Below, piece by piece: positions 18,908-51,579 of a stretch of 64,000 nucleotides of DNA (its first letter is position 1; each line of letters starts with the position of its first letter). The notes below the pieces were generated by a model. It saw nothing but the letters and a program-made list of their open reading frames with translations, did not search any database and was not told where the DNA came from. The position numbers and the translations under genes are program-made. This stretch comes from Aquimarina sp. ERC-38 (GTDB taxonomy: Bacteria > Bacteroidota > Bacteroidia > Flavobacteriales > Flavobacteriaceae), in the NCBI RefSeq assembly GCF_026222555.1, contig NZ_CP098511.1:4259501-4323500 (forward strand), given 5' to 3'.

Positions 18908-20740
18908 ATGAATTATTTTAAGCAATTTTTTCGTTTTGCGGTTCCCTATAAAATTTACGGAATTTTAAATATTTTATGTAATACCATGTACGCCCTTTTC
19001 AGTGCGTTATCCTTTATTGCTATCTTTCCGGTATTAAAAGTTTTATTTAATACGGAAGCAGATCAGCAATTCTACCAACCGGAATGGACCGGAATTATTA
19101 ATGTAAAACAATATTTAATAGACAGTCTGAACTGTTACATAGAAGAAACTACGGCTTTACATGGTAAAATGCCTATTCTGACATATGTAATTATTGTTAT
19201 TATTAGTATTTTTCTTCTTAAAAACCTTTTCGGCTACCTGGCCTTGTATTTTATTACTTTTTTACGAAATGGTGTACTTAAAGATATACGGAATGAATTG
19301 TATGATAAAATTGTAAGTCTGCCTTTATCCTTTTATTCTGAAAAAAGAAAAGGTGATACTATTGCTAGGATAACTTCGGATGTTTTAGAAATTCAGAATT
19401 CATTTCTTTCAATTCTTGAACTTATTGTAAGGGAACCTCTTACCATTTTTTTTACCCTGGTTTCTATGGTACTGATTAGTGTAAAACTAACTTTATTCGT
19501 ATTTGTATTTATTCCTGTTTCCGGATTTATTATTTCGCTAGTTGGAAAAACTCTAAAAAAGCAATCTGATAAAGTACAAAGAGAACAAGGACAGTTTTTA
19601 TCTGTAGTTGAAGAGACCCTGGGAGGTTTAAAGGTAATCAAAGGTTTTAATGCGGAATCGCGGTTTTCACAGAAATTTAAAGCCTCCACCCAACGTTATT
19701 TTGATTTTTCAAACACCTTATTAAACCGTCAAAACCTGGCGTCACCTACTAGTGAATTTTTAGGTATTTGCGTAATTGCGGTTTTATTATGGTACGGAGG
19801 TATTTTGGTTTTTAAAGATAAATCCCTGGAACCCGAATCATTTATTGTGTTTATAGGCTTGGCTTATAATATTTTAACTCCCGCCAAAGCAATATCCAAG
19901 GCTAACTATAGTGTTAGAAGAGGAAATGCAGCAGCAGAAAGGGTACTGGAAGTTTTAAACACCCCCTCCCCTTTGGCAGATCAAGTAGCAGCACAAACCA
20001 AGCAAGACTTTACTACAGCCATTACTTTAGAAAACGTTTCCTTTAAATATGAAGATGACTACGTATTAAAAGATTTCAATTTAACTGTAAAAAAAGGAAC
20101 TTCTGTAGCCCTGGTAGGACAGTCCGGGAGTGGAAAATCAACGATTGCTAATTTGGTTACCCGTTTCTATGATGTAAGTGAAGGAACTATTGCATTAGAT
20201 AATACCCCTATTAAGAAACTAACCAAGCAGTCTTTACGCCAATTAATAGGATTGGTTACTCAAGATTCTATTTTGTTTAATGATACCATTAAAGAAAACT
20301 TATGTATTGGTAAAGAAGATGCAACCGATGAAGAAGTTATTGCTGCTCTCAAAGTCGCTAATGCCTGGGAATTTGTAAAAGATCTACCAAAACATATTCA
20401 TACCAATATTGGGGATAGTGGAAACAAATTAAGTGGGGGTCAAAAACAACGTTTATCCATTGCCCGGGCAGTGCTTAAAAACCCTCCTATTATGATTCTG
20501 GATGAAGCCACCTCTGCCCTGGATACTGAAAGTGAGCGATTGGTTCAGGCAGCATTAGAAAATATGATGAGAAATCGTACCAGTATTGTCATCGCGCACC
20601 GTCTTTCTACCATCCAGAATTCGGATCGTATTGTGGTTATGCATAAAGGTAGTATTGTCGAACAAGGAACTCACGAAGAGTTGTTACAAAAACAAGGAAC
20701 TTACTACAAATTAGTTTCCATGCAATCTTTTGAGGAGTAG
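18908..20740 (+). CDS. ABC exporter, MsbA-like (fused permease and ATPase)
   Basis: A 610-residue half-transporter with six helices in about residues 15-330 and an ATPase domain from about 375. Walker A is GQSGSGKS near 404, the signature is LSGGQKQR near 508, Walker B is IMILDEATSALD near 528, and the switch histidine is in AHRLST near 562. The intracellular loop motifs (LPLSFYSEKRKGDTIARITSDV) are those of lipid and drug exporters of the MsbA group. As a homodimer it may flip lipid A core or another lipid. The preceding mutase gene ends 33 bp upstream, so the two are likely co-transcribed. Confidence 0.93.
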   Translation: MNYFKQFFRFAVPYKIYGILNILCNTMYALFSALSFIAIFPVLKVLFNTEADQQFYQPEWTGIINVKQYLIDSLNCYIEETTALHGKMPILTYVIIVIISIFLLKNLFGYLALYFITFLRNGVLKDIRNELYDKIVSLPLSFYSEKRKGDTIARITSDVLEIQNSFLSILELIVREPLTIFFTLVSMVLISVKLTLFVFVFIPVSGFIISLVGKTLKKQSDKVQREQGQFLSVVEETLGGLKVIKGFNAESRFSQKFKASTQRYFDFSNTLLNRQNLASPTSEFLGICVIAVLLWYGGILVFKDKSLEPESFIVFIGLAYNILTPAKAISKANYSVRRGNAAAERVLEVLNTPSPLADQVAAQTKQDFTTAITLENVSFKYEDDYVLKDFNLTVKKGTSVALVGQSGSGKSTIANLVTRFYDVSEGTIALDNTPIKKLTKQSLRQLIGLVTQDSILFNDTIKENLCIGKEDATDEEVIAALKVANAWEFVKDLPKHIHTNIGDSGNKLSGGQKQRLSIARAVLKNPPIMILDEATSALDTESERLVQAALENMMRNRTSIVIAHRLSTIQNSDRIVVMHKGSIVEQGTHEELLQKQGTYYKLVSMQSFEE

Positions 20741-20849
20741 GAATATTAATATTAGTTTTATCATATTACCAATAATTACTATATACTCATTAATACTTCT
20801 ACCAGATTTATAAAATAAGCTAGTGTAAACAATTAACCAATTTGCCTTA

Positions 20850-20975
20850 AATAACGAAGGGCGCCTTATGGGCGCCCTTCATCTTCACACAAATCATCTT
20901 AATTTAAGGATTTACTCTAAAATTAAAACTCACTCTTTATATCTTAATACGGTTTTATCTTTTCTCGATTACGGT
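20850..20975 (-). ncRNA. Putative small RNA, unit A
   Basis: On the minus strand, TTG-N19-TATATTTA (20977-21006) is followed by a predicted transcript of about 120 nt. The conserved core (20886-20934) is 46/49 identical to that of unit C. The unit ends in a perfect 10-bp GC-rich hairpin at 20856-20880 (gaagggcgcc / ggcgcccttc, 5-nt loop); the T-tail after it is short. A tiny ORF opening in the core (M-I-C-V-K-M) is not preserved among the units, so the product is more likely RNA than peptide. Confidence 0.6.
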
Positions 20976-20976
20976 G

Positions 20977-21006
20977 TAAATATACAAACATATTTAATAT
21001 CTACAA
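20977..21006 (-). promoter_or_regulatory. Predicted promoter of small-RNA unit A
   Basis: TTG at 21004-21006 and TATATTTA at 20977-20984 (minus strand) with 19 bases between them, one mismatch from the Bacteroidetes consensus. An overlapping TATGTTTG at 20985-20992 is exact but lacks a TTG at the right distance. Confidence 0.55.
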
Positions 21007-21489
21007 ATTAAATTACGTCTTTTACCCAATTAAAATGAATTTTACCATAATGGATAAAATAAAACCTAAAATTCGTAATATAATACTTACATTATTACTT
21101 TATTACTAATTTTGAGTATTAATTATACGGTTATTTAGTAATATTTCCACCTTCTATAGTAATAGACGTTAAAAACTAACATTTATTACGTATAAATCAG
21201 AAAAAATATAGGGTAAATTAGTAATAATATGATTTTTAAGCGTTTACCGCATCAAATTCAAGTTAATAAAACATGTATTTTATATAGGTAAGAAAGAATT
21301 CTTATTCTTTATTAATTAACTATTTCAATCCTTCTATTCAACATTTAATAAGATTTGGAATTGATTTTAATGATTTGGCACCTATTTTATAATGTGCTAT
21401 TGAGATCATCACTAAAATACAAACTAGCTATTCTTAAAAAATTTAATATAAATTGCGATTTAAATATCTGTATCAATCCCAAATTATTA

Positions 21490-21603
21490 AAATCAAAAAG
21501 CCATTTCAAAAACTGAAATGGCTTAAAATCATATTAATTTTAAAGGGCTAACTCAAAAAATTAAAAATTATGATATGTATTTGAAAAAAATCTTTCTAAA
21601 TAC
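21490..21603 (-). ncRNA. Putative small RNA, unit B
   Basis: The most diverged of the three units. On the minus strand it has TTG-N20-TACATTTG (21608-21638), a core at 21525-21570 that aligns with units A and C with a few single-base gaps (shared blocks atcat.ttaattt, aaagg and actc), and a perfect 11-bp terminator hairpin at 21498-21524 (aagccatttca / tgaaatggctt) followed by TTTTTGATTTT. The element order and spacing match units A and C. Confidence 0.6.
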
Positions 21604-21607
21604 AGGT

Positions 21608-21638
21608 CAAATGTAAGAAAATAATTACTTAAAACCAA
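21608..21638 (-). promoter_or_regulatory. Predicted promoter of small-RNA unit B
   Basis: TTG at 21636-21638 and TACATTTG at 21608-21615 (minus strand), 20 bases apart. The bases after the box (ACCTG) resemble those after the unit C box (ACATG). Confidence 0.6.
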
Positions 21639-21694
21639 AAAATATTACTTTTAAACCTATTTTATTACTTTTTATCGATATTTATGAATTAGGT

Positions 21695-21828
21695 ACAAAA
21701 AAAGAGCGCCAGACGGCGCTCTTCTCCTCACACAAATCATCTTAATTTAAAGGCTTACTCTAAAATTAAAACTCACTTTAACTACAAATTTTATCCTTTT
21801 GAAAGATAAAATTATCTCTTATTAACAC
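21695..21828 (-). ncRNA. Putative small RNA, unit C
   Basis: On the minus strand, TATATTTG (21833-21840) is followed by a transcript of about 130 nt. The 49-bp core at 21729-21777 is nearly identical to that of unit A. The unit ends in a perfect 8-bp hairpin (agagcgcc / ggcgctct, 21703-21722) followed by seven to eight T, the best terminator of the three. The orientation of the T-run fixes the strand. No TTG is present at -33; a T-run occupies that place. Confidence 0.65.
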
Positions 21829-22124
21829 ATGTCAAATATACGGTAAAAAGTAATATAAAAAAATAAAAAACGTATTTTAACATAATAAAAACGTATTTCA
21901 TCTGGATTTACATCGTGATTTATGATTTAAAAAAGAATTATACTACATTTATTAAACTGAAAATCGACTAAAACCATTTTAATTTGTTGATAGTAAATAC
22001 TTTAAGGGAATTATTCTTATAAAATTACATTTACCATAATTAAATTGTGAGAAGTTATAAAATGCGTAAAACCTGCCAGGTTGCAATACTTCCTTTAAAT
22101 TTCTGTCGCCTTAATAATATAACG

Positions 22125-22132
22125 TACCTTTG
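22125..22132 (+). promoter_or_regulatory. Minus-7 box of the DEAD-box helicase gene
   Basis: TACCTTTG, an exact TAnnTTTG match, ending 17 bp before the start codon. No clear TTG is present upstream. The leader would be only about 10 nt. Confidence 0.5.
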
Positions 22133-22149
22133 CGCCTTATTTAAAATAT

Positions 22150-23913
22150 ATGAACAAATTCGAGCAATTAGGCTTAGGTGAAGCCGTTTTACAGGCCGTG
22201 AAAGAAATGGGATTTGAAACACCCAGTGAAGTACAGGAAAAAGCTATCCCTATATTGTTAGAGCAAGATACGGATATGGTTGCTTTGGCACAAACCGGAA
22301 CTGGTAAAACAGCCGCTTTTGGGTTTCCACTTATAGAAAAAATTGATGCATCTAGTAGAATTACCCAAGGGTTAATTCTATCTCCTACTCGTGAATTATG
22401 TTTACAAATTACAAATGAGTTAAAAAACTACTCGAAGTTTGTAAACGGTTTACATACCGTTGCTATTTACGGAGGTGCCAGCATTACCGATCAGGCGAAG
22501 CAAATTAAAAAAGGAGCGCAAATTATTGTAGCAACTCCCGGGCGTATGCAGGATATGATTAATAGAAAGTTGGTGAATATTACCAATATTGATTATTGCA
22601 TCCTTGACGAGGCTGATGAAATGTTAAATATGGGGTTTTATGAGGATATTAAATCCATTCTTTCAGATACCCCGGATCATAAAAATACCTGGTTATTTTC
22701 GGCAACGATGCCCAGAGAAGTGGCTACTATTGCAAAACGCTTTATGAGTGATCCGGTAGAAATTACCGTAGGTCATAAAAACACTGGTTCAAAAAATGTT
22801 TCTCATGAATATTATGTAGTTAACTCAAGAGATCGATATGCAGCCTTAAAACGTCTTGCAGATGCCAATCCGGACATATTTTCGGTAGTGTTTTGTCGTA
22901 CTAAGCGAGATACTCAAAAAGTAGCTGAAAATCTAATTGAGGATGGGTACAATGCCGCAGCACTTCATGGGGATTTAAGCCAGAATCAGCGTGACCTGGT
23001 TATGAAAAGTTTTAGAAACAGACAGATACAAATGTTAGTAGCGACAGATGTGGCAGCCAGGGGTATTGATGTAGATGATATTACTCATGTGATTAATTAC
23101 CAGTTGCCCGATGAAATTGAAACGTATACACACCGTAGTGGCCGGACTGGTCGGGCGGGAAAAAGCGGGGTCTCTATGGTCATTGTGTCTAAAAGTGAGA
23201 TACGCAAGATTAAAAGTGTTGAACGTATTATTAAACAGACTTTTGAGAAGAAAGATATTCCAAGTGGTGAAGAAATCTGTCAAATACAATTATTTCACTT
23301 AGCTAATGATATTGCAAAGGCAGAAATTAACCATGAGATTGACCCTTATTTACCTTCTATAAACGAAGCTCTGGAAGCTTTTACAAAGGAAGAGCTCATT
23401 AAAAAACTTTTTTCAGTAGAGTTTACCCGATTCCATAACTATTATAAAAAATCCAAAGATCTAAATAGTAGTGCAGAAAGTACAAGTTATAGTGCAGATG
23501 GAAGTGTACGATACTTTATCAATGTAGGAGAACGGGATGATTTTGACTGGATGACCCTTAAAGATTTCCTTAAGGACACTTTAGATTTAGGACAGGATAC
23601 CATAAGTCGCGTAGATGTAAAAGAAAATTTCTCTTTCTTTAACACCCCGGCAGAATTTCAGGAAAGAGTGCTTGCTATTTTTGAAGATTTTCAAATGGAC
23701 GGGCGAAAGGTGAATATAGAAATTTCTAAGAGCGGTGGTCGTCGCGACGGAGGTTCGCGAAGGAGAAATCGACGAGATGGAAGCGGAGGCGGTGGATCTA
23801 GTTCCAGATCTTCCTCTCGAAGAAGTAAAAACTTTTCACCACGCGGTTCCGGTACCAATTCTTCTGACGGAAGACGAAGAAGAGACCGGAGAAAAAGAAG
23901 CGATCGAAACTAA
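22150..23913 (+). CDS. DEAD-box ATP-dependent RNA helicase (DeaD/CsdA type)
   Basis: A 587-residue protein. The Q motif region EQLGLGEAVLQAVKEMGFETPSEVQ opens the sequence. Motif I is AQTGTGKT near 46-53, followed by PTRELCLQ, DEADE near 153-157, SATMPRE near 180, and ATDVAARGIDV with HRSGRTGRAG in the second RecA domain. Residues about 470-555 (VRYFINVGERDDFDW, DVKENFSFFNTPAEF) form a DbpA-type RNA-binding domain. The tail from about 556 is rich in Arg, Gly and Ser. It unwinds RNA in ribosome assembly and at low temperature. The long tail and RNA-binding module point to the DeaD group. The small-RNA cluster lies just upstream on the opposite strand. Confidence 0.94.
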   Translation: MNKFEQLGLGEAVLQAVKEMGFETPSEVQEKAIPILLEQDTDMVALAQTGTGKTAAFGFPLIEKIDASSRITQGLILSPTRELCLQITNELKNYSKFVNGLHTVAIYGGASITDQAKQIKKGAQIIVATPGRMQDMINRKLVNITNIDYCILDEADEMLNMGFYEDIKSILSDTPDHKNTWLFSATMPREVATIAKRFMSDPVEITVGHKNTGSKNVSHEYYVVNSRDRYAALKRLADANPDIFSVVFCRTKRDTQKVAENLIEDGYNAAALHGDLSQNQRDLVMKSFRNRQIQMLVATDVAARGIDVDDITHVINYQLPDEIETYTHRSGRTGRAGKSGVSMVIVSKSEIRKIKSVERIIKQTFEKKDIPSGEEICQIQLFHLANDIAKAEINHEIDPYLPSINEALEAFTKEELIKKLFSVEFTRFHNYYKKSKDLNSSAESTSYSADGSVRYFINVGERDDFDWMTLKDFLKDTLDLGQDTISRVDVKENFSFFNTPAEFQERVLAIFEDFQMDGRKVNIEISKSGGRRDGGSRRRNRRDGSGGGGSSSRSSSRRSKNFSPRGSGTNSSDGRRRRDRRKRSDRN

Positions 23914-44988: not shown

Positions 44989-45024
44989 TAATTGAACCTT
45001 TTTCCCGAGATTCATAATTACCTG

Positions 45025-45200
45025 AGAATAATGGCAGGTCTCCTGGCTCACGTTTTGTTACCAACCTTCCCATTCGTTATTAACAAACAGTGGTATTGTA
45101 GTAGGATAACAAACATCCGCCTACGGCGGACTAAGTATACAGTTGCGGGAACAGCTCCGGCTTTTCCAATTTATAGTTCTTAACCAGGTACATTTGTTTA
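45025..45200 (-). promoter_or_regulatory. Cobalamin riboswitch upstream of btuB
   Basis: On the minus strand the hallmark segments occur in the right order: gccggagctgttcccgcaac, aatgggaagg, and the B12 box agccaggagacctgcc at 45033-45048. A 7-bp peripheral stem (gtccgcc / ggcgga) lies between the first and second. The box ends about 45 bp before the receptor start, so adenosylcobalamin binding probably hides the translation start or stops transcription. I do not see a strong terminator, so translational control is more likely. No such element faces the opposite way to cobU. Confidence 0.93.
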
Positions 45201-45217
45201 TCACTTTTGGTATAATC

Positions 45218-45333
45218 CGTCAGTTCGAGTGCTTCGACCAAAGGAAGAAGTGTATCGAGAACAAGGATTATAGTTAAAAGCTATTCTCGATACGTTTTTT
45301 TCCATTTCATTACAAAAAACACTCGAATTGACG
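45218..45333. repeat. Nested inverted repeat between riboswitch and cobU
   Basis: Outer arms cgtcagttcgagtg (45218-45231) and cactcgaattgacg (45320-45333) match with one mismatch; inner arms gtatcgagaa (45252-45261) and ttctcgatac (45284-45293) match perfectly. The remaining gap to cobU (45334-45526) holds AT-rich sequence with no second riboswitch. Confidence 0.75.
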
Positions 45334-45526
45334 CTTTTTACTAAACGTATGACCAATATAGATACAAATTAAAGTATCGGATTCCCTTTTAATTTTCAGC
45401 TTTACCAAAGCTTTAAAACCAAAATTCGATGCGAATGTATTATAATTTACACAAAAGTCTGCTACGTTTTTAATAAGAATTGAGAATTACCTATACCTTT
45501 ATACCCAAAAGCACCGAACACATTTC

Positions 45527-47841: not shown

Positions 47842-48377
47842 TTCGGCATACTACTCCCGATATTCAAAAAGGGATTTGTTACGGTCAATCAGATATTGGA
47901 GTGGCGGCTACTTTTTCTTCAGAAGTTAAAGAAATTCAAAAGCAAATACCATTAGATGCATCTACCGTAATTTATAGCAGTCCGTTACAAAGGTGTATGC
48001 AGTTAGCAAACAGCTTCGGCTTGCCCGTTATACAAGATTCCCGATTACGGGAAGTCAATTTTGGTACCTGGGAATTACAAGCCTGGGATGCTATCCCTCA
48101 AAACGAAATGGAACCCTGGATGAAGAACTTTGTAAGTGTAGCCCCTCCTAGTGGGGAATCCTATGAAGCTGTTCAAAAACGGGTGCTTGCAAGTTTTACG
48201 GAAATTTTACAAAGTTCTTCAAAGTCAGTTATTATTTGTACCCATGCTTCTCCGCTACGTATTATCTTATCTAACCTTAAAGAAATTCCGCTTAAAGATT
48301 CCTTTAGCCTTACTGTAGCATACGGGCAGGTGTTTAAAATTCAGTATGCCGATAAAAAATTGACTATTATTGACTAA
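47826..48377 (+). CDS. cobC: Alpha-ribazole phosphatase, histidine phosphatase family
   Basis: A 183-residue member of the phosphoglycerate mutase-like family. The catalytic motif is LIRHTTP (RHG variant with Thr) at about 5-11, the second His is in CTHASPLR near 139, and YSSPLQRC and LREVNFGTWELQAWDAIP lie between. It removes the phosphate from alpha-ribazole phosphate or from adenosylcobalamin phosphate. The start overlaps the end of cobS by 16 bp, and the B12 operon context makes the CobC role likely over other phosphatases. Confidence 0.88.
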   Translation: MEIHLIRHTTPDIQKGICYGQSDIGVAATFSSEVKEIQKQIPLDASTVIYSSPLQRCMQLANSFGLPVIQDSRLREVNFGTWELQAWDAIPQNEMEPWMKNFVSVAPPSGESYEAVQKRVLASFTEILQSSSKSVIICTHASPLRIILSNLKEIPLKDSFSLTVAYGQVFKIQYADKKLTIID

Positions 48378-48462
48378 AAGTAAGATTGATCTTAGCTTCT
48401 AGCTTATAAAACCTGACTACAAAGGATTCTGTATATTAGCGCCTAATTGATAAACGGATGCA

Positions 48463-51456: not shown

Positions 51457-51579
51457 AAGGCAATACGTTTGTATTTACACCATATTAATTATCACATTCT
51501 TAATAAATTATTATTTTTTCTACGGATTAAACACAGAATATTCGGGTGAAATTCATTTTAGTTTATGATATATACTAGA

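Follow-up and report, generated by a model that had tools for sequence, protein, structure and literature searches.

Units A and C, two of three small-RNA-like units in a gene-free gap of the Aquimarina sp. ERC-38 chromosome, are, we are reasonably sure, real members of a structured, multicopy RNA gene family found across Aquimarina. The family, its fold, its synteny, its upstream repeats, and its distribution were established by computation. The reading we favor, with somewhat better than even confidence, is that the RNA is a trans-acting sRNA whose ancestral single gene was multiplied in Aquimarina, that its promoter is activated by a LytTR-type regulator, and that it acts through C-rich loops.

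Three units in a gene-free gap

The gap (20741–22149, minus strand read directly) lies in the window, the 64-kb stretch of DNA that was analyzed, with an ABC exporter gene on one side and a DEAD-box RNA helicase gene on the other (Table 1). A preliminary description of this DNA had reported three units on the same strand, and A, B, and C are where it placed them. As it had counted, 46 of the 49 core positions on the minus strand are identical between A and C; the stem lengths it gave for the terminators of A, B, and C (10, 11, and 8 bp) were confirmed from the sequence, as was the TTG-N19 spacing before the −7 box of A, and the boxes of B and C were located too. Absent from that description were two direct repeats, 20–21 bp apart, which stand upstream of each unit. 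All three units fold better than their own shuffled sequences (Table 1).

Table 1. Features of the gap and its flanking genes (positions in the window)
Feature	Position	Strand	Evidence and remarks
ABC exporter	18908–20740	+	Pfam ABC_membrane, ABC_tran; conserved syntenic neighbor, on the 3′ side of the array
sRNA unit A, predicted transcript	20853–20974	−	R2 96.6 bits; fold z −6.2; hairpin 2 intact, hairpin 1 mostly lost
Intrinsic terminator of A	20856–20880	−	sequence and fold
Core of A (hairpin 2 and GATGATTTGTGTGA tail)	20885–20933	−	46/49 identity with C
Promoter of A, TTG-N19-TATATTTA	20977–21006	−	sequence; −7 box TATATTTA at 20984–20977
Direct repeats of A, GGTAAAATTCA and GGTAAAAGACG, 20 bp apart	21016–21046	−	sequence; Aquimarina matrix 15.3
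sRNA unit B, diverged	21490–21605	−	hairpin 1, hairpin 2 with AGCCC loop, terminator; fold z −5.2
Terminator of B	21524–21498	−	sequence
Promoter of B, TTG-N20-TACATTTG	21608–21638	−	sequence; −7 box TACATTTG at 21615–21608
Direct repeats of B, GATAAAAAGTA and GTTTAAAAGTA, 20 bp apart	21646–21676	−	other-genus matrix 17.5
Intrinsic terminator of C	21697–21722	−	sequence and fold
sRNA unit C	21700–21830	−	R2 111.8 bits; fold z −3.5; hairpins 1 and 2, terminator; hairpin-1 loop without CCCC
Core of C	21728–21776	−	conserved core; sequence
−7 box of C, TATATTTG	21833–21840	−	sequence; no clear TTG at −33
Direct repeats of C, GATGAAATACG and GTTAAAATACG, 21 bp apart	21871–21902	−	Aquimarina matrix 15.7; other-genus matrix 12.6
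DEAD-box RNA helicase	22150–23913	+	Pfam DEAD, Helicase_C, DbpA; occupies the place of the ECF sigma gene here

The covariance model R2, run on the window, finds A (E = 4e-16) and C (E = 6e-19), scores to be read with both units among its 28 building sequences. Unit B is matched by its core alone (21571–21528, 14.3 bits), with an E value of 0.026 in the gap with filters off and 1.2 across the window, where a chance plus-strand match scores higher (18.0 bits). Searched for elsewhere, B's own sequence returned short AT-rich matches only, which rules it out as a conserved separate RNA. Its anatomy leads us to judge B a member of the family, less certainly than A and C, and, as described earlier, it is a diverged unit. 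In Rfam searches of the window nothing in the gap reached a gathering score, and the sole match was a cobalamin riboswitch elsewhere (45016–45438, minus strand). Lenient Rfam searches of the gap, of loci L036, L039, and L021, and of 13 other-genus loci gave matches that all fell below the family gathering scores.

Distribution of the family

Unit A as a DNA query finds C and five more copies in the genome, each with E < 1e-14, and a covariance model from 28 units (A and C included) recovers the same seven clear copies. The five dispersed copies lie at 524.6, 809.6, 813.2, 814.8, and 818.1 kb of the 4.43-Mb chromosome. Across the genus, 51 of 52 genomes match the 28-unit model (46 of 46 among those of good quality), each with 1–13 matches, and one has no match. 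The preliminary description had proposed paralogous structured sRNAs with their own promoters and terminators, and this is supported; its notion of a triplication is too narrow, the family being genus-wide and not a local tripling.

Outside Aquimarina, the 28-unit model (R1) matched none of 297 genomes from 235 other genera of the family, with 11 candidates per genome scored under stricter filters. The exact string AAATTAAGATGATTTGTGTGA occurs in 93 stretches among 84,980 species; among the 80 matches listed, 79 are from Aquimarina and one is from an uncultured Flavobacteriaceae bacterium. Tandem arrays are common, with units mostly spaced about 260–430 bp, and mean identity between units is 0.943 within a locus vs 0.847 between loci, a few overlapping loci entering twice. 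Diverged, low-scoring copies resembling B also stand at array edges in other genomic loci (L085, 4254–4390; L050, 9747–9881; L071, 5982–6117). Our literature search, partly loosely posed, found nothing on such an sRNA in Aquimarina.

Structure and covariation

Each unit runs in the order paired repeats, promoter, hairpin 1, hairpin 2, conserved tail, terminator. In the consensus of 119 units and B, the promoter is TTTGG, about 17 bp, and TATCTTTACA, followed by a leader; hairpin 1 reads CTTTCAT-TYTCCCCAAG-ATGAAAG, with a UCCCCAAG-type loop and an A-rich link after it; hairpin 2 reads TTTTAATTTTAG-AnTAAGCCC-CTAAATTAAGA; and the 3′ part consists of the tail GATGATTTGTGTGAAG and a GC-rich terminator. 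The core is strongly conserved over the 119 genus units.

The structure used for R2 was set by hand because RNAalifold, run on A1, missed hairpin 1. Of 175 matches, the 25 weakest, which include every copy from the ERC-38 genome, were dropped, and covariation was assessed on the other 150 (133 distinct). Pair cells are standard in 99.5%, in an alignment that was fitted to the structure and so favors it. Cells with double changes number 115, against a mean of 39 in shuffled alignments, and 0 of 500 shuffles reached 115. These double changes fall in hairpin 1 and the terminator, three pairs each; in hairpin 2 the 150-match alignment holds no double compensatory change, only one-sided changes or none. 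Of the checks proposed with the preliminary description, the covariance model shows covariation, the search of related genomes finds the RNA in 51 of 52 of the genus, and Rfam gives no match at gathering score.

The C-rich loops are nearly constant. CCCC occurs within the first 60 nt of 144 of the 150 units, none of them from this genome, and CCC in the hairpin-2 loop region of 142; at least 136 of the 150 aligned Aquimarina units have both loops. Within the ERC-38 genome, the hairpin-1 C-run is kept in the five dispersed copies and lost in A and C: in C, hairpin 1 has an altered sequence, and in A it is largely gone. Since the copies at the presumed ancestral site have lost the run and the dispersed ones have kept it, units A–C may be weakened or specialized.

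That the cores might be what is left of an insertion element or a degenerate coding gene, a prospect raised in the preliminary description, was not borne out, and we consider it very improbable. The multiple copies, some in tandem, and the presence of ATGATTTGTGTG in 133 of 133 distinct units would suit such an origin, but an ORF from the ATGATTTGTGTG ATG overruns the RNA 3′ end in 131 of the 133, which rules out a coding core and agrees with the earlier statement that no ORF is conserved among the units. Furthermore, loop lengths differ by 1–2 nt between units; promoter, repeats, and terminator travel with the copies; and the genes that recur as neighbors of the main loci are conserved ones and not transposases, though one copy in the ERC-38 genome has a transposase-like ORF nearby.

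Synteny within Aquimarina

In 102 arrays from 95 Aquimarina loci, overlapping loci of one genome entering more than once, the gene for the same ABC exporter is among the neighbors of 38 and a sigma-factor gene is near 53. The full arrangement, with the ABC exporter as the ORF next downstream and sigma one or two ORFs upstream, occurs at 32 arrays, many of the remaining arrays running into the end of a locus. In two divergent Aquimarina genomes the single clear match falls within the ABC–sigma gap; in seven others, also with a single clear match, the fetched stretch has no ABC or sigma gene. Further recurrent sites are a second sigma gene paired with a gene we take to be FecR, DUF58/DUF456 genes, and genes presumably 2-oxoacid dehydrogenase-like. 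In the window, the side with the ABC, phosphoglucomutase, and glycosyltransferase genes is present, and the DEAD-box helicase replaces the sigma operon. The preliminary description had linked the units to this helicase; that link is not supported, synteny pointing to the ABC exporter on the other side and, in other species, to an ECF sigma gene upstream, and a link to a LytTR regulator encoded elsewhere is better supported.

A probable counterpart in other Flavobacteriaceae

We traced the ABC gene in 59 of 60 genomes of the family, this genome included. At 41 of the 58 loci from other genera a sigma gene follows it in the fetched stretch, and the gap between the two is at least 180 bp in 26 cases and shorter in 15. 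A CCCCAA hairpin followed by a T-run occurs on the antisense strand in 17 of the 26 longer gaps, on the sense strand in 0 of 26, and in 0 of 15 short gaps; shuffled gaps had a mean of 0.14 and a maximum of 2 of 26 in 200 rounds. With CCC alone required, the counts are 22 of 26 antisense vs 3 of 26 sense (shuffled mean 4.2). A first, narrower scan, limited to loops of 5–10 nt, had given 11 of 26 vs a shuffled mean of 2.5; the second criterion was widened post hoc, after longer loops were seen, with matched controls. All of these scans leave out 20 ABC loci without a sigma hit, including our own (L165) and two refetches.

The typical unit of these genera combines AACCTACTTATG with a hairpin, whose loop is GUCCCCAAGU or UGCCCCAAAU, and with a terminator, which in some has a C-rich loop of its own; some gaps hold two units. 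In 21 aligned units, 7 of the 8 pairs of hairpin 1 show double changes and covariation is 0.52 vs 0.27 shuffled; with the 3′ side slid by −3 columns, 78% of cells are still paired and covariation is 0.25. A covariance model of these 21 units (R3) matches 55 of 149 genomes, once each. Thirty-four of the matches lie outside its training set, in 34 further genera, and 33 of those are in the ABC–sigma gap (32 in fetched loci, one by coordinates). Overall, loci were fetched for 48 of the 55 matches. In 47 of these the match is antisense and flanked by the ABC and sigma genes; in the other (G126) it adjoins the sigma gene, and the ABC gene lies elsewhere. Coordinates place the remaining seven matches next to the ABC gene.

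This RNA of the ABC–sigma gap is probably the syntenic counterpart of the Aquimarina sRNA. Because R1 and R3 give no cross-matches (R3 found nothing significant at the Aquimarina array copies on which it was tried), the argument for common descent is drawn from shared position, orientation, repeats, and loop.

The conserved antisense placement could also suggest a cis element, in which the antisense RNA and its terminator insulate or tune the ABC–sigma region and have been multiplied without any function in trans. We regard this as improbable: Aquimarina copies stand at several unrelated loci, the sigma neighbor is missing at the window copies, and the conservation of loop and tail exceeds the needs of a terminator.

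Upstream repeats and a candidate regulator

The TTG of the −33 element is preceded in other genera, at a distance of about 10 bp, by two copies of CGATnAAAnGCA with a 21-bp period. The layout upstream of the sRNA is CGATnAAATGCA-TTTTTTTC-TTG, with the repeats directly before the −35/−33 element; at other genes this spacing varies. The other-genus matrix was built from 26 of 30 loci, of which 17 fit the 21-bp pair well (score ≥17 of 22) and nine poorly. In Aquimarina, the repeat consensus over 177 units (229 occurrences minus 52 with identical upstreams or no TTG promoter pattern) is GTTAAAA..C.TTTTTTTtaGATAAAAt.CA, and its autocorrelation peaks at lag 20. Applied to the 64-kb window, the other-genus matrix ranks the pair of B first, at 17.5, where three shuffled windows reach 14.5, 15.0, and 16.9; the pair of C is sixth, at a score not above the shuffled windows, and the repeats of A were found in the window with the Aquimarina matrix and not with the other-genus one.

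At a score of at least 10, the other-genus matrix finds the pair upstream of 137 of the 177 Aquimarina sRNA units and of 27 of 28 genes for a LytTR regulator, vs 13 of 433 control ORFs. The cut of 10 was set post hoc, after a first matrix had given 27 of 29 upstreams at ≥9 and 10 of 433 controls, and the comparison leaves out L339, an incomplete locus. Moreover, the 28 upstreams are related sequences, three of them from closer relatives of the first regulator, and amount to about one independent, well-conserved observation. That first regulator is a LytTR response regulator whose gene lies 60 bp after a site of the strict repeat pattern in Aquimarina. A LytTR regulator related to it is present in 26 of 27 Aquimarina genomes and adjoins rpsF in the ERC-38 genome, where, as in three others, the repeats before its gene are followed by TTTG and a −7-like box as at the sRNA. 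A neighboring second LytTR/kinase operon has no repeats upstream. From these sequence patterns, the sRNA promoter is likely activated by a LytTR-type regulator.

In 100 genomes of the family the strict pattern matches 84 times, in 49 of them (4 matches for the reversed pattern), and its Aquimarina form matches 48 times in 22 genomes (1 reversed). By coordinates the sRNA accounts for only 11 of the 84, so the repeats are not confined to sRNAs. At 44 non-sRNA sites, an ORF of at least 50 aa starts within 400 bp on the same strand in 24 cases and is absent in 20. Six of the eight best-scoring control upstreams belong to DUF4199-type genes (two checked with Pfam); such genes with repeats occur in several Aquimarina (L052, L041, L136, L043, L107, and L145), and in two checked cases they are near the glycosyltransferase gene of the same region. 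In two other genera (L279, L291), a repeat-driven promoter precedes a CAP-type lipoprotein gene whose leader contains a TGCCCCAAAT-loop hairpin; the CAP domain was found by Pfam in one of the two, and the leader fold has a z of −2.2 in one.

Several further repeat sites were observed. At L290 and L296, from two genera, a pair lies upstream of a locus-I-type sigma gene, on the sigma strand, in the ABC–sigma region. Pairs in the window at 51524–51555 and 48350–48382 (both plus strand) precede two lipoprotein-like genes (51613 and ~48463); their other-genus matrix scores, 14.4 and 14.1, do not exceed what the shuffled windows give (tops 14.5–16.9). In six Aquimarina genomes (L319, L321, L310, L316, L318, L326), a conserved pair stands about 22 bp before the same 283-aa gene, whose product looks substrate-binding-protein-like by eye. 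At L292 a pair lies 42 bp upstream of an ORF with an FGE-sulfatase domain, which we take to resemble a gliding motility lipoprotein of the GldJ/GldK type. Elsewhere in the ERC-38 genome (L364, ~3184808, minus strand), a pair directly precedes TATATTTG, followed by a leader with ACCCCAAAA; the folding of this leader is no better than that of its shuffles.

Proposed action

The favored reconstruction is as follows. A, C, and less certainly B would be copies of an independently transcribed, trans-acting sRNA. Its ancestor was probably a single-copy gene, antisense in the gap between the ABC exporter and ECF sigma genes of Flavobacteriaceae. In Aquimarina, the RNA would have been remodeled by addition of another hairpin, one that is strongly conserved, and its gene would have multiplied, giving both tandem arrays and dispersed copies. 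The direct repeats just upstream of the −33 element in each copy fit a LytTR-type response regulator, the best candidate being the one with the same repeats before its own gene; the outcome would be an autoregulated switch in which copy number determines the sRNA dose. The C-rich loops of the RNA, UCCCCAAG in hairpin 1 and AAGCCCC in hairpin 2 (for some other genera, a C-rich loop in the terminator), may bind G-rich sites in a few mRNAs in the manner of LhrC.

A target search by loop complement found TTGGGG near starts (−100 to +25) at five sites among 520 ORFs, and no target emerged. Since complementary sites are rare, either few targets are to be expected or the loop binds a protein. CsrB and RsmY act as decoys for CsrA, and the RNA described here might likewise be a decoy, its C-rich hairpins binding an RNA-binding protein and its copies titrating that protein off mRNA leaders with the same hairpin. 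Apart from the few mRNA sites, this would fit the two C-rich loops per RNA, seen in most Aquimarina units and also in several other genera, and the persistence of the loops while the stems change. Because the leader of the CAP-type lipoprotein gene carries the same kind of hairpin under repeat control, the decoy model stays in play, and we rate it as unlikely though a serious candidate. No candidate binding protein was identified, however, and such leaders number only two, a third candidate, at L364, showing no fold beyond chance; nor would a loop-binding protein explain the long invariant tail GATGATTTGTGTGAAG.

A wider form of the idea, which we hold doubtful, is that a LytTR regulator of Flavobacteriaceae deploys a portable CCCCAA-loop hairpin both as an sRNA and as the leader of some of its own mRNAs, with the sRNA copies titrating a hairpin-binding factor and, in Aquimarina, gene dosage (1–13 copies) tuning the circuit. 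If true, Bacteroidota would have in this circuit an equivalent of Gac/Rsm assembled from other components.

To our knowledge, post-transcriptional control outside Bacteroides has been little explored in Bacteroidota. The results offer a family-wide, syntenically anchored sRNA, a genus in which it has multiplied, and a candidate regulator with a predicted site; with all of these in hand, regulator, dosage, and targets are directly testable.

Comparison with known systems

Flavobacteriia rarely use Shine-Dalgarno sequences. A published view has the C-rich-loop sRNAs of low-GC bacteria acting on such sequences (PMC4132741).

LytTR sites are described as 9-bp direct repeats, mostly with 12 bp between them and typically about 10 bp upstream of the −35 element, and the regulator gene as autoregulated (PMC6193735). 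The sRNA promoters are alike in having two direct repeats directly upstream of −35, with a period of 20–21 bp that fits a separation of 11–13 bp between 9-bp units, and the candidate regulator gene would likewise be autoregulated. They differ in sequence (CGATnAAAnGCA vs the published ACCRCTTAY, PMC6193735), in having an sRNA as output, and in the period, which in Aquimarina is mostly 20.

Rfp18 of Flavobacterium psychrophilum, a structured sRNA needed for precise protease expression, is, as far as its description allows comparison, similar in being structured and conserved beyond its own species in Flavobacterium (PMC9723704). FopS/GibS of Bacteroides thetaiotaomicron likewise form a paralogous, multicopy sRNA family in Bacteroidota; FopS is reported to have a single-stranded 5′ seed and one terminator hairpin, in 12–15 copies in Bacteroidaceae (PMC11697453, PMC7366714). 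Unlike FopS, the Aquimarina RNA has structured hairpins with C-rich loops, which precede the terminator and of which the first covaries, and has LytTR-type repeats and no Rfam match; the lenient searches of the gap, of L036, L039, and L021, and of the 13 other-genus loci, run with the families of Rfam release 15, gave no match to FopS.

The nearest working model for the action of the sRNA is LhrC of Listeria monocytogenes, a multicopy RNA with UCCC loop motifs, all five copies of which are reported to be under one two-component system (PMC4132741). The likeness extends to multiple copies, similar size, redundant C-rich loops (here in nearly all of the 150 aligned units), a single-stranded stretch, and a terminator (PMC4132741), and a shared response-regulator site has a putative parallel in the repeat pair that the other-genus matrix finds at 137 of 177 units. 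The differences are the Bacteroidota host, the CCCCAA loop, repeats that suggest LytTR and not LisR, and the lack of a linking Rfam match.
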